A stretch of DNA of 64,000 nucleotides from Pseudothauera rhizosphaerae. Its GTDB lineage: Bacteria; Pseudomonadota; Gammaproteobacteria; Burkholderiales; Rhodocyclaceae. Below the pieces are notes generated by a model. The model worked only from the letters and a program-made list of their open reading frames with translations. It was not told the DNA's origin and searched no databases. Numbering within the stretch: position 1 is the stretch's first letter; each line of letters starts with the position of its first letter. A program made the position numbers and the translations under genes. Positions 2,696-23,503 of this stretch are shown here, in pieces. The stretch is from positions 124,001-188,000 of the forward strand of contig NZ_SSOD01000005.1 of the NCBI RefSeq assembly GCF_004801305.1. The letters are read 5' to 3'.

Positions 2696-2781
2696 GCAGT
2701 CGTTTCGCGTGCGGCTGTACCGAGCAGGCGGGCCGGCGTCATGGTTAAATGCGTCCGATCCCACGCCAGCCACCGCCAGCC

Positions 2782-4167
<1,386 letters not shown>

Positions 4168-4171
4168 GCGC

Positions 4172-6280
4172 GTGGAGCCGGTAAGCCAGGGCCTGCTGCC
4201 GCGGCTTGCCGAACGCGCGCGCCGTTCGGTGCGCGCCAAGCTGCTGGCGCTGGTGCTGGCGCCGCTCGCGGTGGGTGTGCCGGTCCTGCTCGGCCTGGTG
4301 TGGACCTGGGGCAACCAGTCCTACCAGCGCCTGCTGACCTACAAGATCAGCTCCGACATGGTCACCGCCCACGAGTATTTCGACCGCGTGCGCATCGGCG
4401 TCGGCCACGAGGTGCAGGCCGCCGCCGAATCGCACCGCCTGGCGCTGCTGCTGCCGCGCCAGGGGCGCGACGCGGAGATGTCGGGGCTGCTCGCCAACCT
4501 GGCGGTGGCGCGCGGGCTGGACTTCCTGCACTTCCTCGACCGGGACGGGCGCATCCTCGCCAGCGCCCACAACGAGTTCGCGCCGGCCGATTCGCGCGTC
4601 GCCTGGCCGGTGGTGGCGGCCGCGCTCGCCGGCCAGGCCCACACCACGGTCGAACGCCTGAGTGCCGACCAGCTCGCCGGGATCGACCCGGCCCTGCGCC
4701 GCCGCGCCCGCCTCGACCTGGTGCCCACCCGCGCCGCCGCGCCCGATCCGCGCAGCTTCGAGGACCGCGGCCTGATCATCCACGCCGCCGCCCCGGTCGC
4801 GGACGCCCAGGGCCGGCCGCTGGGCGTGCTCGAAGGCGGGGTGCTGCTCAACGGCAACCTGGAGATCGTCGACCGCATCAACGCCATCGTATACCGCGAC
4901 GGCTCGCTGCCCCTGGGCAGCCGCGGCACGGCGACGCTCTTCCTCGACGACGTGCGCATCGCCACCAACGTGCGCCTGTTCGAGGGCAAGCGCGCGCTCG
5001 GCACGCGGGTCTCCGCCGCGGTGCGCGAGCACGTGCTGGGGCGCGGCGAGACCTGGCTGGGCACGGCCTTCGTGGTCACCGACGACTACGTGTCGGGCTA
5101 CGAGCCGGTGCTCGACGGACGCGGCGCGCGGGTCGGCATGCTCTACGTCGGCTTCCTCGAAGAACCCTTCCGCAACGCCATGCGCTTCGCCCTGGGCGCG
5201 CTGTTCGTGCTCTTCGCCGTGCTCTCCGGGTTGGGCACGGTGCTGTCCCTGCGCTGGGCGCGCAGCGTGTTCCAGCCCATCGAGCGCATGAACGCGGTGA
5301 TCCAGCGCGCCCGCCAGGGCGAGGCCGGCGCGCGCGTGGGCGAGGTCGCCAGCCGTGACGAACTGGGCCGCCTGGCCGGCGAGTTCGATCACCTGCTCGA
5401 CACCCTGGCCGCCCGGCGGGAGGAACTGCAGCGCTGGGGCGAGGAACTGGACGCCAAGGTGGCCGAGCGCACGCGGGAGCTGTCGGAGGCCAACGCCCAT
5501 CTGCGCCACGCCCAGCAGCAACTGGTGATGAACGAGAAGCTGGCCGCCATCGGCGAGCTGACCGCCGGTGTCGCCCACGAGATCAACAACCCGGTGGCGG
5601 TGATCCAGGGCAACCTGGACGTGCTGCGCGACGTGCTGGGCGAAGCGGCCGACCCGGTGCGCGGCGAAATCCGCCTGATCCACCAGCAGGCCGACCGCAT
5701 CCGCCAGATCGTCACCAAGCTGCTGCAGTTCGCCCGCCCCGGCGACTTTGCCGGCTACGTGGAGGCCGTGGACGTCAACGCCGTGCTGGCCGACTGCCTG
5801 CTGCTCACCCAGCACAACCTGGACCGGCGCAGCGTGGCCGTCGAACAGCGGCTGGAGGCCACGCTGCCGGTGGAGATCAACCGCAGCGAGTTGCAGCAGG
5901 TGCTGATCAACCTCATCGTCAATGCCATCCAGGCCATGCCGGACGGCGGCACGCTGACCCTGGCGAGCGAGAACTGGCTGGAGCACGACCAGCCCATGGG
6001 CGTGGTGCTGCGCGTGCGCGACACCGGCCACGGCATCGCGCCGGAGAACCTGTCCAGCATCTTCGACCCCTTCTTCACCACCAAACGCGGCAGCGGGACC
6101 GGCCTGGGCCTGTCCATCAGCTACACCATCGTCGAGCGCTACGGCGGGCACATCGAGGTGGACAGCCGGCCGGGCGAGGGCGCGGAGTTCGCCGTGCGCC
6201 TGCGCTGCGAGCCGATTTACGACGACGCGCCCGAAGCGCCGCACTTCGCCCGCCGCTGGGACATCGCCGGCAAGATCTAG
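4172..6280 (+). CDS. Sensor histidine kinase with large periplasmic (Cache-like) domain
   Basis: Partner of the preceding regulator. The 702-residue protein has a membrane segment at about 23-44, a periplasmic region of about 290 residues that looks like a double Cache domain, a second membrane segment at about 338-360, a HAMP-like linker and coiled coil, then HisKA with phosphoacceptor His469 (GVAHEINNP) and an ATPase domain with N-box Asn584, DTGHGI from Asp617 and GSGTGLGLS near 640. It starts at GTG4172; the ATG at 4164 is out of frame and closes at once. The ligand cannot be read from sequence. Its position before the formate dehydrogenase operon suggests it senses formate or a related small acid or redox cue. 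Confidence 0.9.
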   Translation: MEPVSQGLLPRLAERARRSVRAKLLALVLAPLAVGVPVLLGLVWTWGNQSYQRLLTYKISSDMVTAHEYFDRVRIGVGHEVQAAAESHRLALLLPRQGRDAEMSGLLANLAVARGLDFLHFLDRDGRILASAHNEFAPADSRVAWPVVAAALAGQAHTTVERLSADQLAGIDPALRRRARLDLVPTRAAAPDPRSFEDRGLIIHAAAPVADAQGRPLGVLEGGVLLNGNLEIVDRINAIVYRDGSLPLGSRGTATLFLDDVRIATNVRLFEGKRALGTRVSAAVREHVLGRGETWLGTAFVVTDDYVSGYEPVLDGRGARVGMLYVGFLEEPFRNAMRFALGALFVLFAVLSGLGTVLSLRWARSVFQPIERMNAVIQRARQGEAGARVGEVASRDELGRLAGEFDHLLDTLAARREELQRWGEELDAKVAERTRELSEANAHLRHAQQQLVMNEKLAAIGELTAGVAHEINNPVAVIQGNLDVLRDVLGEAADPVRGEIRLIHQQADRIRQIVTKLLQFARPGDFAGYVEAVDVNAVLADCLLLTQHNLDRRSVAVEQRLEATLPVEINRSELQQVLINLIVNAIQAMPDGGTLTLASENWLEHDQPMGVVLRVRDTGHGIAPENLSSIFDPFFTTKRGSGTGLGLSISYTIVERYGGHIEVDSRPGEGAEFAVRLRCEPIYDDAPEAPHFARRWDIAGKI

Positions 6281-6294
6281 GCACCCGCCGGATT

Positions 6295-6329
6295 GGGACA
6301 ATATGTCCCGCCATCGGACAGAAAGTCCC
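6295..6329. promoter_or_regulatory. Paired upstream activator sites for the fdn promoter
   Basis: Two similar inverted repeats lie 15 bases after the kinase gene. Site 1 (6295-6309) reads GGGACAATATGTCCC, perfect 6-base arms around a 3-base centre. Site 2 (6315-6329) reads CGGACAGAAAGTCCC with GGAC/GTCC arms. The centres are 20 bases apart, about two helical turns, and lie about 80-110 bases upstream of the predicted start point, the usual place for enhancer-binding proteins. A further half-site TGTCCC occurs at 6416-6421. The neighbouring NtrC-type regulator is the obvious candidate to bind (inference). Confidence 0.65.
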
Positions 6330-6384
6330 ATGCCGGGAATCGGGTAGCATCACCAAGTCCCTGTTACAGAAACTATTTCTCTTC

Positions 6385-6400
6385 TGGTATGTCTTTTGCG
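6385..6400 (+). promoter_or_regulatory. Sigma54 (-24/-12) promoter of the formate dehydrogenase operon
   Basis: The sequence TGGTATGTCTTTTGCG fits the sigma54 consensus TGGCACG-N4-TTGCW: the invariant GG is at 6386-6387 and the invariant GC at 6398-6399 with exactly 10 bases between. Transcription would begin near 6410, about 40 bases before the fdnG ATG. The location directly downstream of a sigma54 activator and kinase, and directly upstream of fdnG, supports it. Confidence 0.75.
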
Positions 6401-6448
6401 GTACGACAGCCGTTTTGTCCCATAACCAAAAGCGAAGGGGGAGAGACC

Positions 6449-9400
6449 ATGCACGTCTCCAGACGCGGATTCTTCAAGGTCTGCGCCGCGGGCATGACGG
6501 GCTCCAGCCTGGCCACGATGGGCTTCGCGCCCACCGCGGTGCTGGCCGAAGTCCGCCAGTACAAGCTCGCGCACGCGACCGAAACGCGCAGCATCTGTCC
6601 GTATTGCTCGGTCAGTTGCGGCACCCTGGTGTATTCGATGGGCGACAAGTCCAGGAACGCCAAGGCGCGCATCTTCCACATCGAAGGCGACCCGGACAAC
6701 CCGGTCAACCGCGGCAGCCTCTGTCCGAAGGGCGCCGGCCTGCTGGACATGGTCCACAGCCCGCTGCGCCTGACCCATCCGGAAGTGCGCGAACCCGGTT
6801 CCAACCAGTGGAAGCGCATCTCCTGGGATGAAGCCTTCGACCGCATCGCGCGGCACATGAAGGCCGACCGCGACGCCAACTTCGTCGACAAGAACGACGC
6901 CGGTCTCACGGTCAACCGCTGGACCACCACCGGATTCCTCGCCAGCTCGGCTGCTTCGAACGAACCGTCCTACCTGTCGATCAAGGTCATGCGCGCCCTG
7001 GGCGTGGTGGCCATCGACACCCAGGCGCGCATCTGACACGCTCCCACGGTAGCCAGTCTGGCTCCGACCTTCGGGCGTGGTTCGATGACCAACCACTGGG
7101 TGGACATCAAGAACGCCGACCTCGTCCTGATCATGGGTGGCAACGCCGCGGAAGCGCACATCTGCGGCTTCAAGTGGGTGCAGGAGGCCAAGCACGTCCG
7201 CCGCGCCAAGCTCGTGGTCGTGGACCCGCGCTTCACCCGTTCGGCCGCCGTTGCCGACTTCTACGCGCCGATCCGCGCGGGCACCGACATCGCCTTCCTC
7301 GCCGGGGTGATCAACTACCTGCTGGAAAACGACAAGCTCCAGCATGAGTACGTCAACGCCTACACCAACGCCGCCTTCCTGATCGATCCGGACTACGGCT
7401 TCGAGGACGGCCTGTTCACCGGCTACAACGCCGAGAAGCGCAGCTACGACAAGGCCACCTGGCGCTACCAGATGGGCGAGGACGGCTTCGCCAAGGTCGA
7501 TCCCACGCTGCAGGACCCGAACTGCGTCTTCCAGTTGATGAAGAAGCACTTCGCGCGCTACGACGCGGACGCGGTCAGCAACATCACCGGCACGCCGAAG
7601 GACGCCTTCCTGAAGGTCTGCGAGATGATCGCCGAATGCTCGGCGCCCGACCGCGTGATGACCATCCTCTACGCGCTGGGCTGGACGCAGCACTCGGTGG
7701 GTTCGCAGAACATCCGCACCATGGCGATGATCCAGCTCCTGCTGGGCAACATGGGCATGCCGGGGGGCGGCATCAACGCCCTGCGCGGCCACGCCAACGT
7801 GCAGGGCGTGACCGACATGTGCCCCTTCACCGCCAACCTGCCGGGCTACCTGTCCGCGCCCACGGAGCGGGACGCCACCGCCGAAGCCTACGTCGCGGCG
7901 CGTACCACCAAGCCGCTGCGGCCCGGCCAGATGAACTTCTACGGCAACTTCCCGAAGTGGTGGGTGAGCCTGATGAAGACCTGGTACGGCGACGCGGCCA
8001 CCGCGGAGAACGGCTGGGCCTACGACTGGCTGCCCAAGCCGGACGGCTCCTACGACGTGCTGGCCATGTTCGAGCGCATGCACCAGGGCCGCATGAACGG
8101 CTTCTTCTGCCAGGGCTTCAACCCGCTCGCCTCGGTGGCCCACAAGGGCAAGGTCTCGGCCGCGCTCGCCAAGCTCAAGTACCTGGTGGTAATGGACCCG
8201 CTGGCCACCGACACCTCCGAGTTCTGGAAGAACTACGGCGAGTACAACGACGTGGACCCGCGCCAGATCCAGACCGAGGTGTTCCGCCTGCCGGCCGAGC
8301 TGTTCGCCGAGCACGAGGGCAGCTTCACCAACTCCGGCCGCGTCATCCAGTGGCACTGGAAGGCCGCGGACGGTCCGGGCGAGACGCGCGGCGACCTGGA
8401 GATCATCGCGCAGCTCTACACCCGCCTGCGCGACCTCTACGCCAAGGAAGGCGGCGCGCTGCCCGATCCGGTGCTCAACCTGACCTGGCCCTACCGCCAG
8501 CCTACCAGGCCGTCCGCCGACGAAGTGGCGCGCGAAGTCAGCGGCCGCGCGCTGCGCGACCTCACCGACGCCGCCGGCAACGTGGTGGTCAAGGCCGGCG
8601 ATCAGCTCGCGGGCTTCGCCCAGTTGCGCGACGACGGCTCTACCGCCAGCGGCAACTGGATCTATTGCGGCTCGTACTCCCAGGCCGGCAACCTCACCGC
8701 GCGGCGCGACAACTCCGACCCGTCCGGCCTCGGCCAGACGCTCAACTGGGGCTTCGCGTGGCCGGCCAACCGGCGCATCATCTACAACCGCGCGTCCTGC
8801 GATCCGAGCGGCAAGCCGTGGGACCCCAAGCGCGCCCTGCTGCGCTGGACCGGAACCGCGTGGGGCGGCAACGACGTGCCGGACATGCGGCCCAACGCCG
8901 CACCGGAAGAAGGCGTCGGCCCCTTCATCATGAACGCGGAAGGGGTGGCGCGGCTGTTCGCCCCGGGCATGATCGAAGGGCCTTTCCCCGAGCACTACGA
9001 GCCCTTCGAGACGCCGCTGGCACGCAACCCGCTGCACCCGGACAAGCCGGAAGTCACCAGCAACCCGGCGGCCCGCGTGTACAAGGGCGACATGGAACTG
9101 TTCGGCAAGGCCGACGAGTTCCCCTACGTGGCCACCACCTACCGCCTCGCGGAGCACTTCCACTTCTGGACCAAGACCTCGGTGATCAACGCGGTTCTCC
9201 AGCCGGAGCACTTCGTCGAAATCTCCGAAGAACTGGCCGCGGAGAAGGGCATCGGCAAGGGCGACGTGGTCAAGGTGCGCTCCAACCGCGGCGAGATCAA
9301 GGCCGTGGCGGTGGTCACCAAGCGTATCCCCGTGCTCCAGGTGGACGGCCGCAAGGTCCACACGGTGGGCATCCCGCTGCACTACGGCTTCAAGGGTGAG

Positions 9401-9505
9401 ACCAAGCCTGGTTACATCACCAACACCCTGACGCCGTTCGTGGGCGACGCCAACAGCCAGACGCCGGAATACAAGGCGTTCCTGGTGGACATCGAAAAGG
9501 CATAG
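6449..9505 (+). CDS. fdnG: Formate dehydrogenase-N/O alpha subunit, selenocysteine-containing
   Basis: Catalytic molybdenum (bis-MGD) subunit that oxidises formate to CO2 in the periplasm. The 1018-residue protein has a twin-arginine signal (SRRGFFK, residues 4-10), a 4Fe-4S site made by Cys50, Cys53, Cys57 and Cys92, and a UGA at 7034-7036 read as Sec196, followed by His197. E. coli FdnG has the same cluster spacing and Sec196. The frame is identical on both sides of the UGA, and the conserved sequence [20 protein letters not shown] runs straight through it. A SECIS-like hairpin follows the UGA. ATG6449 has a GGGGGAGAG ribosome binding site. Read without recoding the gene would appear as two ORFs split at 7036; it is intact. 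Confidence 0.96.
7034..7066 (+). promoter_or_regulatory. Selenocysteine UGA codon with SECIS hairpin
   Basis: The UGA (7034-7036) is followed, after about 10 bases, by a hairpin: CGG (7047-7049), a single bulged U (7050), AGCC (7051-7054), loop AGUCU (7055-7059), GGCU (7060-7063) and CCG (7064-7066). The bulged U and the GU-containing apical loop at this distance are the features recognised by SelB in the E. coli formate dehydrogenase SECIS. selB and selC are encoded in the same window. Confidence 0.88.
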
Positions 9506-9515
9506 GGAGGCTCGC

Positions 9516-10421
9516 ATGGCACTGCAATCGCTCGACATCGCGCGGCGCTCGGCGACCACCACCGAGGCGCCGCAGGTCCGCCACACCGAAGAGGTCGCCA
9601 AGCTCATCGACGTGTCCGCCTGCATCGGCTGCAAGGCCTGCCAGGCGGCCTGCATGGAGTGGAACGACATCCGCCCGGAAGTGGGTCACAACGTCGGCAT
9701 CTACGACAACCCGCAGGACCTGGACGACAAGACCTGGACCCTGATGCGCTTCACCGAGGTGGAGGAGCACGGCAAGCTCGAATGGCTCATCCGCAAGGAC
9801 GGCTGCATGCACTGCGCCGACCCCGGCTGCCTGAAGGCCTGCCCCTCCCCCGGCGCCATCATCCAGTACGCCAACGGGATCGTGGATTTCCACCAGGAGA
9901 ACTGCATCGGCTGCGGCTACTGCGTCACCGGCTGCCCCTTCAACGTGCCGCGCATCTCCAAGACGGACAGCAAGGCCTACAAGTGCTCGCTGTGCTCCGA
10001 CCGGGTCGCGGTGGGCCAGGCGCCGGCCTGTGCCAAGGCCTGTCCCACCGGCGCGATCAAGTTCGGCGCCAAGGAAGACATGGTCCATTACGCCGAAGAC
10101 CGCATCGTCGACCTCAAGGAGCGTGGCTACCGGAACGCCGGCCTGTACGACCCGCAAGGGGTAGGCGGCACCCACGTCATGTACGTACTGCACCACGCCG
10201 ACCGGCCCTCGCTGTACGCCGGCTTGCCGGACAACCCGCAGATCAGCCCCATGGTGTCCCTGTGGAAGGGCATCGCCAAGCCGCTGGCCATGGTCGCTCT
10301 GGGCGCCACGGCACTCGGCAGCCTGTTCCACTACGTCATGAAAGGCCCCAACGAAGTCTCCAAGGAACTGGAAGACGAGATGGACAAGGAAGCGGCCCTG
10401 GAGAAGGAGGACGCCAAATGA
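9516..10421 (+). CDS. fdnH: Formate dehydrogenase iron-sulfur (beta) subunit
   Basis: Carries electrons from the alpha subunit to the membrane cytochrome. The 301 residues contain four ferredoxin-type cysteine groups ([42 protein letters not shown] with CAKAC), as expected for four 4Fe-4S clusters, and one C-terminal membrane segment at about 250-270 that anchors it facing the periplasm. A GGGAGG ribosome binding site overlaps the fdnG stop region, 10 bases before the start. The length is close to E. coli FdnH. It is exported with FdnG through the Tat signal of the alpha subunit (family knowledge). Confidence 0.95.
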
Positions 10422-11041
10422 TCCGCAATCCGCGCGACCTGCAACGCTACACGGCGTCCGAGCGGGCCAACCACTGGGTGCTGGGCATCTGCTTCATCCT
10501 GCTGGGCCTCTCGGGCCTCGCCTTCTTCCATCCGGCCTTCTTCCCGCTGGTGAATCTCTTCGGCGGCGGCACCTGGGCGCGCATCCTGCATCCGTGGATC
10601 GGCGTGATCATGGCCCTGTTCTTCCTCGTCATGTTCATCCGCTTCGCGCGCCTGAACCTGATGGGGCCGGTGGACTGGGACTGGCTGTCCAAGGTCGGCA
10701 AGATGGTGGACGGCGACGACCACGACATGCCCGAGCAGGGCAAGTACAACGGCGGCCAGAAGCTGTTGTTCTGGGGGCTCGCCCTCAGCATGCTGCTGCT
10801 CGCCGCCTCCGGCGTGGTCATGTGGCGCGCCTGGTTCAGCTTCCCGGTGGAGGTGGTGCGCGTCGCGATGGTGGTGCATGCGGCCACCGGAGCCTTCATG
10901 ATCGGCCTGATCTTCGTGCACGTGTACGCCGCCATCTGGACCCGCGGCACCATCCGCGCCATGCTGTACGGCACCGTCACCCGCGCCTGGGCCAAGCAGC
11001 ACCACCGCGGCTGGTACCGGCAGGTGACCGGCAAGAACTAG
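10418..11041 (+). CDS. fdnI: Formate dehydrogenase cytochrome b556 (gamma) subunit
   Basis: Inner-membrane cytochrome that passes electrons from formate oxidation to quinone. The 207 residues form four membrane segments. His19, His58, His154 and His168 match the heme b ligands of E. coli FdnI (18, 57, 155, 169). The ATG overlaps the fdnH stop (ATGA) and follows a GGAGAAGGAGG ribosome binding site, so the two genes are translationally coupled. The frame is open far upstream inside fdnH, but only this start gives the family N-terminus [20 protein letters not shown]. Confidence 0.95.
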
Positions 11042-11054
11042 GTCACGAGGCATG

Positions 11055-11125
11055 AACCGTTCGGGCTGAGCCTGTCGAAGCCCCTTGGCAGCAATCGCCC
11101 TTCGACAGGCTCAGGGCGAACGGTT
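11055..11125. repeat. Dispersed palindromic repeat, copy 1
   Basis: A 26-base left arm (11055-11080, starting AACCGTTCGGGCTGAGCC) is repeated in inverted form at 11100-11125 with two mismatches, around a 19-base spacer. It lies between fdnI and fdhE, only 13 bases after the fdnI stop. A second copy with the same arms is at 25178-25246. In transcripts it would form a long hairpin that could separate fdnI from fdhE expression. Confidence 0.8.
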
Positions 11126-11159
11126 TGTCCCGATTCTCCGCACCGACACCCGAGACCGC

Positions 11160-12101
11160 ATGAATCCTGCAAGTTCCGCCACGCCCGGCTCCGCCCTCAA
11201 CCCCGGCCTCGAACCGCCAGCCGTCATCGCGCCGCCCGCCGATCTGTTCGCCGACCGCGCCGCGCGCTTCGAACGCCTGGCCGCCGGCCACGCCTCGGGT
11301 GACTGGCTGGCCTTCCTCGCCCGCCTCACCCGTGTGCAGCATGAGTTGCTGCAGCAGCACCCCGCGGTGCCGCTGCCCGACGCTGCCACCCTGGAGCAGG
11401 CGAGCCGCCACGCCATGCCGCCGCTGCCGGCCAACGGCTGGCCGCGCGACCCGGTGTGGCGCCGCCACCTCGCCACGCTGGCCGACCGCCTGATCCCCGC
11501 CGCGCCCGAGTCCCTGCGCCCGCAGCTCGCCGGCCTCGCGTCCGCCCCCGCGGAAGAACTCGAACGCCTCGCTGCGGCGGTGCTGCGCACCGAGTACGAC
11601 CCGCGCGAAGCCGCCCGTCTGCCCTTCGTCGCCGCCGCGCTGCAGGTCTATTGGACCTGGATGGCCGCCCAGCCCGCCTTCGCCGGCCTGGCCCGGCTGG
11701 ACGTGCCCGGCGTGTGCCCGTGCTGCGGCAGCCTGCCGGTGGCCAGCGTCATCCAGGCCGGCCAGTACGCCGGCACGCGCTACCTGCACTGTTCGCTCTG
11801 CAACACCGAATGGAACCTGGTGCGCGTCCAGTGCAGCGCCTGCGGCAAGGACGACAAGGTGTCCTACCGCGTGCTGGAAGAGGACGTCGCCGAGGGGGGT
11901 ACGCAAAGGGAACTGGTCCGTGCGGAAGTCTGCGACGACTGCCATAGTTATCTGAAGGTCGTGTACCGCGACAAGGACGCGGCCGCCGACCCGGTGGCCG
12001 ACGATCTCGCCACGCTGGCCCTGGACATCCTGGTGGACGAGGCCGGCTACATGCGCAGCGGCCCCAACCCGCTTTTCATCCCGGGAGACGCAGCCGCGTA
12101 A
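11160..12101 (+). CDS. fdhE: Formate dehydrogenase accessory protein FdhE
   Basis: Cytosolic maturation factor for Tat-exported formate dehydrogenases. The 313-residue length matches the family. The C-terminal half carries the rubredoxin-like cysteine groups CPCC (186-189), CSLC, CSAC and CDDC that bind iron or zinc. The frame is open from 11085 through the palindromic repeat, but ATG11160 gives MNPASSATPGS and avoids the repeat-encoded residues. The dehydrogenase genes lie upstream and selA downstream. Confidence 0.93.
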   Translation: MNPASSATPGSALNPGLEPPAVIAPPADLFADRAARFERLAAGHASGDWLAFLARLTRVQHELLQQHPAVPLPDAATLEQASRHAMPPLPANGWPRDPVWRRHLATLADRLIPAAPESLRPQLAGLASAPAEELERLAAAVLRTEYDPREAARLPFVAAALQVYWTWMAAQPAFAGLARLDVPGVCPCCGSLPVASVIQAGQYAGTRYLHCSLCNTEWNLVRVQCSACGKDDKVSYRVLEEDVAEGGTQRELVRAEVCDDCHSYLKVVYRDKDAAADPVADDLATLALDILVDEAGYMRSGPNPLFIPGDAAA

Positions 12102-12152: not shown

Positions 12153-13565
12153 ATGACGACAAACCGCCTCGCATCGCTCCCCGCCGTAGATCGCCTGCTC
12201 GCCGAGCCCGCCCTCGCCGGGGAGATCGCCGCCCACGGCCGTGCGCTGGTCACCGGCTGCGTGCGCGCCGAACTGGCCGCTGCCCGCGAGGCTGTCCGTG
12301 CCGGTGCCGCGCTGCCCGACGTGGCGGCTCTGCTCGGCGCCGTCGCCCGCCGCATCGAGCGGGAAGTCCGTCTCAACCTGCGCCGCGTCTTCAACCTCAC
12401 CGGCACCGTGCTGCACACCAATCTGGGCCGCGCTACGCTGCCGGAGGAGGCCATCGCCGCCATGGTCGAAGCCGCGCGTCATCCCTGCGCGCTGGAATAC
12501 GACCTGGACTCCGGCGGCCGTGGCGACCGGGACGATCTGGTCAGCGACCTCCTCGCCGAACTCACCGGCGCCGAGGCCGCCACCGTGGTCAACAACAACG
12601 CCGCCGTGGTCTTCCTGCTGCTGAACACCCTGGCGCACAGGAAGGAAGTGGTCGTCTCCCGCGGCGAACTGGTGGAGATCGGCGGCGCCTTCCGCGTGCC
12701 CGACATCATGAAGCGCGCCGGCGCGAAGCTGGTCGAAGTGGGCTGCACCAACCGCACCCACGCCCGGGACTACGAAGGCGCCATCGGCCCGCGCACGGCG
12801 CTGCTGATGAAGGTGCACACCAGCAACTACGCCGTGGAAGGCTTCACCCACGCGGTGCCGCAGGCGGAACTGGCGGCCATCGCCCACGCCCACGGCCTGC
12901 CCTTCGTCGAGGACCTCGGCTCCGGCACGCTGACCGGGCTGGAGGCGTGGGGCCTGCCCCACGAGCCCACGCCGCGGGAGGCCATCGCCGTCGGCACGGA
13001 CCTCGTCACCTTCTCCGGCGACAAGCTGCTGGGCGGCCCCCAGGCCGGCATCCTGGTCGGCCGCCGCGAGTTGATCGCCAGGATCAAGAAGAACCCCCTC
13101 AAGCGCGCGCTGCGCGTGGGCAAGATCACGCTCGCCGGGCTGGAGGCGGTGCTGCGCCTGTACCGGGACCCGGACCGCCTGCCCGAACGCCTGGAAACCC
13201 TGCGCCTGCTGACCCGCCCGCAAGGCGAGATTCTCGTCCAGGCCGAGCGCCTGCAGCCCGCACTGGCCGCTGCGCTCGCCGGCTGGCCGCTCACCGTCAC
13301 CGTGGAGCCCATGCGCTCCCAGATCGGTTCCGGCAGCCTGCCGGTGGACCGCCTGCCCTCCGCCGGCCTGGTGTGCCGCCCACAGAAGAAGGGCGGGGCG
13401 CTGAACCGCCTGGAACAGGCCCTGCGCGAACTCCCCGTGCCGGTCATCGGCCGCATCGCCGACAACGCCCTGTGGTTGGACCTGCGTTGCCTGCGCCCCG
13501 CCGACGAGGCAGACTTCGCCGCCCAGCTCACGCGGCTGCCCGCCGGCGCCAAGCGCCGCGGCTGA
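12153..13565 (+). CDS. selA: L-seryl-tRNA(Sec) selenium transferase
   Basis: PLP enzyme that converts Ser-tRNA(Sec) to selenocysteinyl-tRNA(Sec) with selenophosphate. The 470-residue protein has the PLP-binding Lys291 in [14 protein letters not shown] (E. coli Lys295), the N-terminal tRNA-binding domain and the motif [14 protein letters not shown]. It follows fdhE by 51 bases, an arrangement that ties it to the selenoprotein fdnG. Its partners selB and selC are 6 and 10 kb downstream; selD is not in the window. Confidence 0.96.
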
Positions 13566-13730: not shown

Positions 13731-13750
13731 GACATCGGGAGGAGGAAGAA

Positions 13751-15124
13751 ATGACCGAACAACACAACGCTTCGCGCAGGCGCTTTCTCGCCGCGGGCGG
13801 CAGCATCGCCGCCGCCGCGGCCGCCGGGCCGGCCCTGGCCCAGACGCCGGCCTCCGCCGGCACACGCCCGCTGCCGCCCCTGGTCGGGCGCAGCACCGAC
13901 ACCCTGCTCGCCCGCGGCAACGTCCGCCGCGTCGTGATCTGCGGCGGCGGCTGGGGCGGGGTCACCGCCGCGCGCTACCTGCGCCAGCTCGCCCCGCAGC
14001 TCGAAGTGGTGCTGCTGGAACGCAACCCGGTGTTCTTCTCCTGCCCCATGAGCAACAAGTGGCTGGTGGACATCGTGGACACCCAGTACCTCACCAAGGA
14101 CTACCTGGCGGTGTCCGAGGCCCAGGGCTACCGCTTCATCCAGACCGAAATCCTGGAGATCGAGCGCGACAGGAAGCGCGTCGTCACCGCCGCCGGCGCG
14201 GTGGATTACGACTACCTGATCCTCTCCCCCGGCATCCGCTACAACTACGAAGCCTGGTTCGCCAACGACCGCCGCGCCGCGGAAGCCACCCGCGCCCGCT
14301 TCCCCGCGGCCTACATCCCCAACGCCGAGCACTTCCGCCTCAAGCAGGCCATCCACGACTTCAAGGGTGGCGACCTGGTGATGACCCTGCCGCCCCCGCC
14401 CCAGCGCTGTCCGCCCAGCCCCTACGAGCGCGCCTGCCTGATCGCCGCGCTGTTCAAGGCGAAGAAGCTGAAGGCGCGGGTGATCGTCCTGGACCACAAG
14501 GACGACGTGCGCCCCATCGGCCCGGGCTTCAAGGCGGCCTTCCAGGAACTGTACAAGGACATCGTCACCTACGTGCCCAACGCCCACGTGCAGGAAGTGG
14601 ACCCCTTCAACAAGCGCATCAGGACCGCGGCGGGCGAATTCAACTTCGACCACGCCATCCTGATGGCCCCCCACCAGGCCGGCGACCTGGCGTGGAAGGC
14701 CGGCGTGGTCGGCAAGTCCGCCCTGGGTGGGCCGGATGGCTGGGCGAATGTCGATCCGCTCTTCCTCCACGCCCACGACGACAAGGACGTGTACGTCATC
14801 GGCGACGCGGTGGGCTTCGTCTCCCCCCAGTTCGCCTTCTATCCCAAGGCCGGCCACGTCGCCAACCGCCACGCCCGCATCGTCGCCAAGTACATCGCCG
14901 AGCGCGAAGCCGGCCGCGACCCCGTCCACGATCTGCCCAACAACCTGTGCTACATGATGGTCAGCACCGATCCGCAGGAAGCCATCTCGGTGCAGTTCGA
15001 CTACAGCATCAACGCCCAGGGCGTCATCGAGCAGAAGCAGTGGGACTTCAACCAGCGCAAGCCGGAGACCGTGGGCGACGACTTCGAATGGGCGCGCATC
15101 ATCTACGGCGACATGTTCGGATGA
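13751..15124 (+). CDS. Flavocytochrome c sulfide dehydrogenase-type flavoprotein (FccB/SoxF-like)
   Basis: Exported FAD protein of the sulfide:quinone reductase superfamily. The 457 residues start with a twin-arginine signal (SRRRFL, 8-13), then the FAD motif VVICGGGWGG (61-70). Cys98, Cys220 and Cys400 have the same spacing as the three key cysteines of Chromatium FccB (42 covalent FAD, 161 and 337 redox disulfide), so catalysis on sulfide or a thiol is plausible. No cytochrome FccA gene is adjacent. The ATG follows GGAGGAGGAAGAA. Its stop overlaps the start of the thioredoxin-like gene. The substrate is inferred. Confidence 0.85.
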   Translation: MTEQHNASRRRFLAAGGSIAAAAAAGPALAQTPASAGTRPLPPLVGRSTDTLLARGNVRRVVICGGGWGGVTAARYLRQLAPQLEVVLLERNPVFFSCPMSNKWLVDIVDTQYLTKDYLAVSEAQGYRFIQTEILEIERDRKRVVTAAGAVDYDYLILSPGIRYNYEAWFANDRRAAEATRARFPAAYIPNAEHFRLKQAIHDFKGGDLVMTLPPPPQRCPPSPYERACLIAALFKAKKLKARVIVLDHKDDVRPIGPGFKAAFQELYKDIVTYVPNAHVQEVDPFNKRIRTAAGEFNFDHAILMAPHQAGDLAWKAGVVGKSALGGPDGWANVDPLFLHAHDDKDVYVIGDAVGFVSPQFAFYPKAGHVANRHARIVAKYIAEREAGRDPVHDLPNNLCYMMVSTDPQEAISVQFDYSINAQGVIEQKQWDFNQRKPETVGDDFEWARIIYGDMFG

Positions 15125-19516: not shown

Positions 19517-21490
19517 ATGCTGATCGGCACCGCCGGCCACATCGACCACGGCAAGACCACGCTGGTGCGTGCGCTCACCGGCGTGGACACCACCCATCTG
19601 CCGGAAGAGAAGAAGCGCGGCATCACCATCGAGCTGGGCTATGCCTATGCGCCCCTGCCCGGCGACGCGGGCGGGGGGCGCATGCTGGCCTTCATCGACG
19701 TGCCGGGGCACGAGAAGTTCGTGCCCACCATGCTCACCGGCGCGGCGGGCATCGACTTCGCGCTGCTGGTGGTGGCGGCCGACGACGGGGTGATGCCGCA
19801 GACGCGCGAGCATCTGGCCATCCTGCAGATCCTCGGCGTGGCGCGCGGCGCGGTGGCGATCACCAAGTGCGACCGAGTGGATGCGGCGCGTATCGCGGAG
19901 GTGGAAGCCCAGGTGCGCGCCCTGCTGGCGCCCACAACCCTGGCGGGCGTACCGCTGTTTGCGGTGGCCGCGTCCGGCGCCGACCACTTCCAACTCGACG
20001 CGCTACGCGATTGCCTGCACGCCGCGGCGCTGGCCGAACCGGCCCATGCCGTGCCGCCCGGCGCGGGTTTCCGCCTGGCGGTGGACCGCCATTTCGCCGT
20101 GGCCGGCGCCGGCACCGTGGTCACCGGCACGGCCTACGCCGGCCGCGTGCGGGTGGGCGACCGCCTGGTGCTGGCGCGCGGCGACGGTTTCACGCGCGAA
20201 GTGCGGGTGCGCGGCCTGCGCGTCAGCAACACCCCGGCGGAGGAGGGCTACGCCGGCCAGCGCTGCGCGGTGAACCTCGCCGGCATCGAACACGGTGCGG
20301 TGGAGCGCGGCGACTGGCTGTGCGACCCCGTGCTCGCCCGCCCCACGGACCGACTGGACCTGCGCCTCACGCTGCTCGCCGACGCCCCGCGCACCCTGGG
20401 CCAGTGGAGTGCGGTCACGCTGCACCACGCCGCCGGCCAGGCGCAGGCGCGCCTGGCGCTGCTGGACGATGCGCTTGAGGCCGGCGGCCTCGCCCCCGGC
20501 CGCGCCGCGCTGGTGCAGGCGGTGCTGGACCGGCCCATCCTCGCCTGCTGGGGCGACCGGGTGGTGATCCGCGACGCCGCCGGCCGGATCACGCTGGGCG
20601 GCGGCCGCGTGCTCGATCCTTTCCCGCCCGCCCGCCACCGCCGCCGGCCGGAGCGCCTGGTGTTGCTCGCGGCGCTGGAGAATGCCGACCCGGCGGCCCG
20701 CCTGGCTGCGTTGTTGGCCGCCGCGCCCTACGGCATCGATGCCGCCGAACTGGCCGCGGCGCACAATCTGGAGGCCTCCGCCTGGCTCGCCACGCTGCCG
20801 GCCGGCGCGGTACTCGCCATCGGCACTGCCCGTGGCACCCAGCTCTTCAATCCGGCTGCATGGGCGCAACTGGGCGAGCGGGTGCTGGGTCGGCTCGCCG
20901 CCCACCACGAGCAGTTCGCCGACGAACCCGGCGTGGAGCGCGAACGCCTGCGCCGCATGGCCGTGCCGCAACTGGCCTCGCCGGTCTTCCTCGCGCTGCT
21001 GGAGGCCCTGCTGGCCGAAGGCCGGCTGGCGCGTGCGGGTTCGGCTTGGCACTTGCCCGGCCACACGGTGGAGCTGTCGCCGGCCGACCGGGAGCGCGCC
21101 GATAGCCTGCTCGCGCGGCTCGCTGACGGCCGCTTCGATCCGCCCTGGGTGCGGGATCTGGCCGCCGCCACGGGCTTCACCGAGGCCGACGTGCGCCGCC
21201 TGCTGCGCCAGCTCGCCGCGCGGGGCGAGGCCTTCCAGGTGGTGCGCGACCTGTTCTATCCGGCCGCGACCGTGGCCGAACTGGCCGCCATCGTCGCCGA
21301 CCTCGCGGCCCAGGACGAGAGCGGCCGCATCCGCGCCGCGGCCTTCCGCGACCGCATCGGCGGCGGGCGCAAGCGCGCCATCCAGATCCTGGAGTTCTTC
21401 GACCGCGTCGGCTACACGCGCCGGGTGGGCGAGGGCAACCGGCGCGCCCACCTGATCCGCGGCGAACCACCGGTGCTTCCCGGCACCTGA
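19517..21490 (+). CDS. selB: Selenocysteine-specific elongation factor SelB
   Basis: GTPase that brings Sec-tRNA(Sec) to the ribosome at a UGA next to a SECIS hairpin. The 657-residue protein has G1 GHIDHGKT (7-14), the RGITIELGY switch, G3 DVPGHE (61-66) and G4 TKCD (116-119), EF-Tu-like domains II and III, and a C-terminal half of winged helices that bind the SECIS RNA (for example [31 protein letters not shown]). The frame is open from 19367, but ATG19517 gives the family start [13 protein letters not shown]. The client fdnG and selA/selC are nearby. Confidence 0.96.
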
Positions 21491-23406: not shown

Positions 23407-23503
23407 GGAAGAGAGGCGTTCCCCGGTGGGGCGACCGGTCTTCAAAATCGGGTGGGGCCGTCAGCCGGTCCCAGGTGGGTTCGACTCCCATTCTCTTCCG
23501 CCA
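23407..23503 (+). tRNA. selC: tRNA-Sec (anticodon TCA)
   Basis: A 97-base selenocysteine tRNA including encoded CCA. The acceptor stem is the diagnostic 8 base pairs (GGAAGAGA 23407-23414 with TCTCTTCC 23492-23499), followed by discriminator G and CCA (23501-23503). The anticodon arm is CCGGT (23435-23439), loop CTTCAAA with anticodon TCA at 23442-23444, and ATCGG. A long variable arm (GGGGCCGTCAGCCGGTCCC region) and the T-loop TTCGACT are present. It decodes the UGA in fdnG. Confidence 0.96.

Follow-up and report, generated by a model that had tools for sequence, protein, structure and literature searches.

The DNA analysed here is a stretch of 64,000 nucleotides, called the window in what follows (G000:C5:124001-188000), from a genome of 4.6 Mb. 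Near its start, and all on the plus strand, lie the genes of a two-component system followed by those of a formate dehydrogenase. The first gene (2749..4167, possibly starting at an internal ATG at 2782) encodes an NtrC-type response regulator with a receiver domain, a Sigma54_activat AAA+ domain in which the GAFTGA motif can be read, and a Fis-type helix-turn-helix (Pfam PF00072, PF00158 and PF02954). This domain set and the cognate kinase gene that adjoins it place the protein in the NtrC family (group I). It shares 58-92% identity with six aligned orthologues and falls below the curated cut-off of every one of the 25 NCBIfam matches listed (of 114). An assignment to the FhlA type was rejected, given that a receiver is present and that the score on the formate hydrogenlyase activator model NF011958 is 276.3 against a cut-off of 830. 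The second gene (4172..6280, GTG start) encodes a membrane sensor histidine kinase for which Pfam and an AlphaFold model together give an N-terminal helix, two Cache-like modules, HAMP, HisKA and HATPase. Sequence reading and Pfam therefore confirm the preliminary description of this DNA in placing a GAFTGA activator and a kinase directly upstream of fdnG.

The enzyme is a formate dehydrogenase-N in its selenocysteine form, with all three subunits above curated cut-offs. Its alpha subunit is encoded by fdnG (6449..9505; TIGR01553, 1523.5 bits against a cut-off of 814.2), which carries an in-frame Sec codon, TGA, at 7034-7036 together with a bacterial SECIS element (7031..7089; Rfam RF01989, SECIS_3, 75 bits). 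The beta subunit gene fdnH (9516..10421; TIGR01582) and the cytochrome b gamma subunit gene fdnI (10418..11041; TIGR01583) follow, and then fdhE for an accessory protein (11085..12101, TTG start as listed; TIGR01562 above cut-off). Further downstream on the same strand are genes for selenocysteine supply, namely selA (12153..13565; TIGR00474 above cut-off), selB (19517..21490; TIGR00475 above cut-off) and tRNA-Sec (23407..23499; Rfam RF01852, 70.1 bits), whose membership of the circuit is putative. Between selA and selB, at about 13745-15124, lies a gene for a flavoprotein resembling flavocytochrome c sulfide dehydrogenase (FCSD_central); a gene of the same family stands divergent from the regulator gene in Dechloromonas hortensis (L127:7036-8367).

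Direct reading gives 168 bases between the kinase stop (6280) and the fdnG ATG (6449). This gap contains two candidate operator palindromes on the plus strand, GGGACAATATGTCCC (distal, 6295..6309) and CGGACAGAAAGTCCC (proximal, 6315..6329), both of which fit GGAC-N5-GTCC, are of the GGGACA-N3-TGTCCC type, start exactly 20 bases apart and are kept in orthologous promoters. On the same strand, 55 nt past the proximal palindrome, lies TGGTATGTCTTTTGCG (6385..6400), a predicted -24/-12 element with an exact GG-N10-GC and three mismatches elsewhere relative to TGGCACG-N4-TTGCW, which marks a candidate sigma54-dependent promoter. The palindrome pair and the element are thus just as the preliminary description had reported them. 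The pair scores 39.8, compared with a maximum of 8.4 in 5,000 shuffles of the gap, none of which equals it, although the scoring matrix includes these two sites. Taken on its own, the -24/-12 element of the window is of moderate strength and weaker than the pair, an equally good one arising in 117 of the 5,000 shuffles.

The control region recurs in relatives. Full-length kinase orthologues among 41 genomes were found in G000, G005, G004, G001, G010, G008, G006 and G027, and among 12 chosen genomes FdnG exceeded its cut-off in G000, G001, G004, G005, G006 and G008, all of which carry the kinase; in G017 a fragment of FdnG lies at the end of a contig. The check that had been suggested beforehand, a search of related genomes for conserved GGGACA-N3-TGTCCC sites upstream of fdnG, turned out positive: two palindromes with at most two mismatches each are present in 8 of 9 close-relative fdnG upstream regions, the two of the genome itself included, and the upstream region in G001:C3 has one clear palindrome. 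The arrangement of the genes varies, in that the kinase gene precedes fdnG on the same strand in G000 and G005, and the regulator gene is divergent from fdnG in G006 and G008, with an operator region common to both.

Within the genome itself, single sites mean little, because a whole-genome search at one mismatch or fewer gives 18 sites against 11 for the reversed pattern, and a genome-wide regulon of single sites was rejected on this ground. The pair is far more selective. When the core pattern of the pair is relaxed, the whole genome matches it at two places, both upstream of fdnG, and each of four relatives matches it once upstream of fdnG, with one further place in G005 and one in G006; the reversed pattern is absent from all five genomes. 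The second of the two places belongs to another fdnGHI operon (L050; G000:C1:215608-218649, minus strand), which has Cys at the Sec position and an FdnG identical to that of the window at 627 of 1014 residues. Upstream of this operon lies the only exact match to the searched palindrome outside the window, 31 bases from a one-mismatch site, and TGGTCCGGAATTTGCT, again a -24/-12 element, follows the pair after 55 nt. The preliminary description had the circuit controlling a selenoenzyme. As regards the Sec fdnG this is supported, but a circuit confined to selenoenzymes has to be rejected, because the Cys-FdnG paralogue has the same control region. In viral contigs, two stretches fit a pattern, and neither encodes a kinase relative.

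Whether kinase and control region occur together was assessed in a sample of 399 genomes drawn from the order, with thresholds of E 1e-60 for the kinase sensor and E 1e-200 for FdnG. The kinase is present in 27 genomes, FdnG in 86 and both in 15, and FdnG is absent at this threshold from 12 of the 27 kinase-bearing genomes. We examined 87 of 92 FdnG rows, leaving out the split-hit G270:C92, G043, G209, G358:C1 and G172, all kinase-negative; the 16 kinase-positive rows represent 15 genomes, with four rows from one genus (g52) and two from G000 itself. The best pair upstream of fdnG scores 12.7 to 49.6 in all 16 kinase-positive rows, 14 of which exceed 18 (the cut-off used elsewhere), and the weakest are G287 at 12.7, which lacks a -24/-12 element, and G364 at 17.5. 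In all 71 kinase-negative rows, the score is 3.6 at most or there is no pair. The positives are not fully independent, because the matrix was partly trained on sites of these lineages; the 71 negatives are unaffected, as is the count of -24/-12 elements, a measure independent of the palindromes. An element with at most two mismatches lies within 250 nt in 12 of 16 kinase-positive rows, compared with 0 of 71 kinase-negative ones, and the window's own, with its three mismatches, is not among the 12. A consensus-free search for repeated palindromes separates the two groups much more weakly than the consensus search (5/16 versus 1/71). Both kinase states occur in eight families (f1, f10, f22, f27, f34, f38, f49 and f51), and the split is therefore not one of one clade versus another. 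This co-variation of operator pair and -24/-12 element with the kinase, alongside a single rpoN match in the genome, argues for the sigma54 control within a dedicated circuit that had been proposed.

The same rows bear on the possibility that fdnG is driven by an E. coli-like sigma70 promoter of the FNR/NarL type and that the -24/-12 sequence is a chance match. The frequency of equally good elements in the gap shuffles speaks for such a promoter. However, a search for FNR-like boxes with at most one mismatch found them in none of the 16 kinase-positive upstream regions and in 6 of the 71 kinase-negative ones, so that FNR-like control was rejected for the kinase-positive group and the contrast with E. 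coli fdn drawn earlier holds for its FNR part. Together with the regular spacing described below, this leaves a sigma70 promoter as a highly improbable explanation.

We further collected named kinase loci in one profile scan with the kinase sensor alignment, and all locus counts that follow refer to the best 80 of 586 candidates. These 80 come largely from Aromatoleum, Azoarcus, Zoogloea, Thauera, Azospira, Azonexus, Dechloromonas, Sulfuritalea and uncultured relatives, and also include alphaproteobacteria, e.g., Azospirillum and Nitratireductor. The set includes some short contigs, and tblastn gives a regulator match in 71 of the 80 loci. Strict pairs occur 25 times in the 1.41 Mb of these best 80 loci and not once when the sequence is reversed, and the pair counts for five scrambled palindromes are 0, 0, 1, 0 and 0; with the gap shuffles, these controls rule out chance palindromes. 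A position matrix finds 41 pairs (some sharing a site), again with none in the reversed sequence, and 33 of the 41 are followed by a -24/-12 element at 40-90 nt. With a duplicate in L124 left out, 32 of the 33 were tallied: the element follows the pair at 51-56 nt in 28 of them and at 74 nt in the other four, which are from the Azospirillum loci L117-L120. The two palindromes are spaced by 20-23 or 29-33 bases, with a helical phasing that is only moderate (mean resultant length 0.66-0.68). In the four Azospirillum loci, a further palindrome, weaker than the others, precedes the pair by 29 bases (L117:7029, L118:6982, L119:7888 and L120:6873).

An fdnG start is present in 24 of these best 80 loci, 25 starts in all, and 24 of the 25 are preceded by both pair and -24/-12 element at a distance of 52-56 or 74 nt, a constancy that is hard to reconcile with a chance -24/-12 match. 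In Azonexus fungiphilus, one of two fdnG copies (L153:6880-3836) has no pair, though the locus has the system. Within the stretches fetched for the best 80 of 586 loci, the pair is present in 36 and absent from 44, and the neighbour genes were inspected by eye in part of the pairless ones. These 44 loci, as well as the 12 kinase-bearing genomes in which FdnG falls short of the threshold used, are what might be expected if a different transcription factor bound the palindromes and the neighbouring two-component system acted elsewhere. We nevertheless consider such a factor very unlikely, since all 16 kinase-positive fdnG upstream regions outscore all 71 negatives across families that contain both states, since the -24/-12 element, which an NtrC-type activator requires, co-varies with the kinase, and since pairs also stand at or just behind the kinase end before targets other than fdnG (L083, L084, L086, L087, L150 and L158).

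That the pair stands before FDH3 or other genes in some other genomes also speaks against a circuit specific to the selenoenzyme. In L083, L084, L086 and L087, the pair and a -24/-12 element are located at the end of the kinase gene. A 4Fe-4S gene starts approximately 420 nt further on in L083, L084 and L086, and in L084 it is followed by a formate dehydrogenase (FDH) alpha-like gene (below cut-off) and genes for FDH3 beta and FDH gamma (both above cut-off); genes were judged by sequence in L083 and by tblastn in L086, and L087 ends inside the first gene. Two genomes of the relatives' set, G010 and G027, have the kinase and FDH3 and no FdnG over cut-off. In G027, which belongs to another family, a pair with a score of 28.1 and a spacing of 32 bases precedes a 4Fe-4S gene that leads the FDH3 genes, as judged by sequence, and TGGCATGAAGATTGCT, a -24/-12 element with one mismatch, lies 72 nt beyond the pair. 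In G010, the kinase orthologue (G010:C1:3828283-3830307) has an in-frame TGA stop, tblastn detects no regulator in 18.5 kb, and there is no pair in the 7 kb before FDH3. The kinase locus of G010 is possibly decaying, and the lack of a pair before its FDH3 is as predicted by loss of the regulator, with one case each for G010 and G027. Upstream of FDH3 in Thauera and Parazoarcus loci there are some palindromes, but no -24/-12 element at the matching place as good as those of fdnG; the predicted control of FDH3 is therefore firm in the Denitromonas-like loci and in G027 alone.

Further neighbours of the system lie outside the enzymes themselves. In L141:5533-6411 (TIGR04553 above cut-off) and L156:7442-8320 (judged by sequence), a weaker pair lies in the interval that separates the regulator gene from one encoding a putative selenate ABC transporter binding protein, a position that suggests selenium uptake under the same control in these two loci. 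The system adjoins MobA and an FdhD-like gene in L079 and MobB and a TupA-like gene in L114, with the FdhD and TupA matches below their curated cut-offs, and moaD/moaE/moeA-like genes, judged by sequence, lie near it in other genomes. In two alphaproteobacteria, the pair precedes genes that are not for formate dehydrogenases, with a -24/-12 element of 0 or 1 mismatch: an MFS transporter of the lactate/oxalate-formate type in L150:11972-13841 (313.8 against a cut-off of 320) and an AMP-binding enzyme in L158:4504-6592.

As to the signal, an AlphaFold model of kinase residues 21-360 (pLDDT 91.2, pTM 0.87) has two Cache-like modules behind a long helix. The second, C-terminal module, next to the membrane, is of the sCache_3_3 type (residues 226-337, encoded at 4847..5182 on the plus strand; PF17202, E 7.2e-29, 100.7 bits against a cut-off of 28.8). 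When all PDB sequences were searched with the sensor, the best matches were 8py0 (9.1e-7) and 8py1 (6.8e-6), whose titles in Foldseek describe chemoreceptor sensor domains in complex with formate. By fold, both are within the Foldseek top 30, but their TM-scores are modest, and they rank no higher than two-module Cache domains that bind other ligands. Residues R262, T265 and T278 (codon stretch 4955..5005, plus strand) align to the R/T/T of 8py0 and 8py1, are invariant in 28 of 28 aligned sensors and have the spacing (R, +3 T, +16 T) of R142, T145 and T158 of PacF, which are reported to influence formate binding (PMC12501870). Formate is also reported as a ligand of an sCache_3_3 domain (PMC12415202), and in Agrobacterium Atu0526, R115A is reported to have abolished chemotaxis to formic acid while binding remained (PMC8698456). 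The kinase sensor thus resembles the PacF-type sCache_3_3 chemoreceptors in having a Cache module with this R/T/T set. It differs in being part of a histidine kinase and not of a chemotaxis receptor, and in carrying R/T/T in the second, membrane-near module, whereas PacF is said to bind formate at the distal one.

Kinase and regulator together very probably detect formate outside the cell and turn on formate dehydrogenase through the sigma54 promoter. The formate-sensing circuit that the preliminary description had envisaged is supported by the likeness of the sensor to receptor domains with bound formate and by its R/T/T set. L187 (G386:C2) and L188 (G301:C2) each contain an additional, weaker match to the sensor within a far longer reading frame (998 and 1300 aa, respectively), so that the sensor may also serve other outputs. 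The main competing reading retains the same two-component system as the controller of formate dehydrogenase and exchanges the signal for another small carboxylate or a C1 compound, or for the status of molybdate, tungstate or selenium. Many small acids are known ligands of Cache domains, and the genes for Mob, FdhD-like, TupA-like, selenate transporter and moa/moe-like proteins near the system, together with the transporter behind one alphaproteobacterial pair, would suit such a signal. However, the molybdenum, tungsten and selenium genes are themselves required for making formate dehydrogenase, two formate complexes head the PDB sequence matches, and R/T/T is kept in every aligned sensor. On balance, a signal other than formate seems unlikely to us, if less so than the other alternatives considered above.

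The computation directly shows the parts, their architecture and its conservation, how this architecture co-varies with the kinase, and that the reported formate residues are kept. From them we infer the following course of events, in which the ligand, the phosphotransfer, the direct binding of the regulator, the direction of regulation and a transcription start near 6411 all have the standing of predictions. Periplasmic formate would bind the sCache_3_3 module of the kinase around R262/T265/T278, and the kinase would then phosphorylate the NtrC-type regulator. Dimers of the latter would occupy both palindromes, whose consensus is TGGACA-N3-TGTCCA and which lie two or three turns of the helix from each other. 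In this position, the AAA+ domain would activate sigma54 RNA polymerase at the -24/-12 element approximately 55 nt downstream, leading to transcription of fdnGHI. Both operons of the genome, the Sec one in the window and the Cys one on contig C1, would be controlled in this way. We therefore think it likely that a dedicated formate-responsive two-component system activates respiratory formate dehydrogenases via sigma54, and that it does so beyond selenoenzymes. A wider proposal is that the system regulates formate respiration in general, in betaproteobacteria and some alphaproteobacteria, with one periplasmic formate kinase and one sigma54 activator co-ordinating Sec FdnGHI, Cys FdnGHI, FDH3 and, in some lineages, selenium uptake and Mo/W supply for these enzymes, and that genomes swap it wholesale for other fdnG control; for this proposal, the chances appear to us evenly balanced.

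Anaerobic and C1 metabolism both use formate as a central currency. If the proposed circuit is correct, a kinase reading periplasmic formate and switching on periplasm-facing formate dehydrogenases would constitute a new sensing route. Its simple operator signature could provide a basis for a formate biosensor, and formate-respiration genes would become predictable in many Rhodocyclaceae-type genomes.

The combination of a sigma54-driven fdnG with a neighbouring activator gene has a precedent in Geobacter sulfurreducens. According to the text available to us, its fdnG (GSU0777-0781) has an RpoN promoter supported by primer extension and an activator gene upstream (PMC2725144), and proteomics finds less of its formate dehydrogenase subunits on acetate than on either formate or hydrogen (PMC2725144; PMC7894505). 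The likeness thus comprises a Sec fdnG operon, an RpoN promoter and an adjacent upstream gene for an enhancer-binding protein; the difference, in a comparison made by description, is that the activator, signal and operator of Geobacter sulfurreducens are not named in that text. A 2025 survey reports sigma54 control predicted for 176 members of one COG, of which 32% are formate dehydrogenases (PMC12316311). Among the titles and abstract openings listed from the open-licence literature of PubMed Central, outside which most subscription papers lie, we found no formate two-component system for formate dehydrogenase, so that, as far as could be searched, a regulatory circuit common to many related bacteria appears undescribed. 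With NtrC, ZraR and AtoC, the regulator shares domain order and mechanism class, and it differs from them in its operator and in the sensor of its kinase. The enzyme belongs to the same family as E. coli fdnGHI, with TIGR01553, TIGR01582 and TIGR01583 all over cut-off here. In E. coli, however, fdnGHI is under Fnr and NarL with sigma70, whereas a sigma54 promoter and a two-component activator are predicted here. The best known bacterial formate regulator is FhlA, which together with sigma54 controls formate hydrogenlyase and fdhF in E. coli, has an N-terminal formate-binding region and no receiver domain, and detects intracellular formate on its own. Both systems would activate formate metabolism through sigma54 in response to formate, but FhlA is an intracellular sensor and not part of a two-component system, whereas here a membrane-bound kinase that senses in the periplasm, together with an activator that has a receiver, would serve a respiratory formate dehydrogenase.
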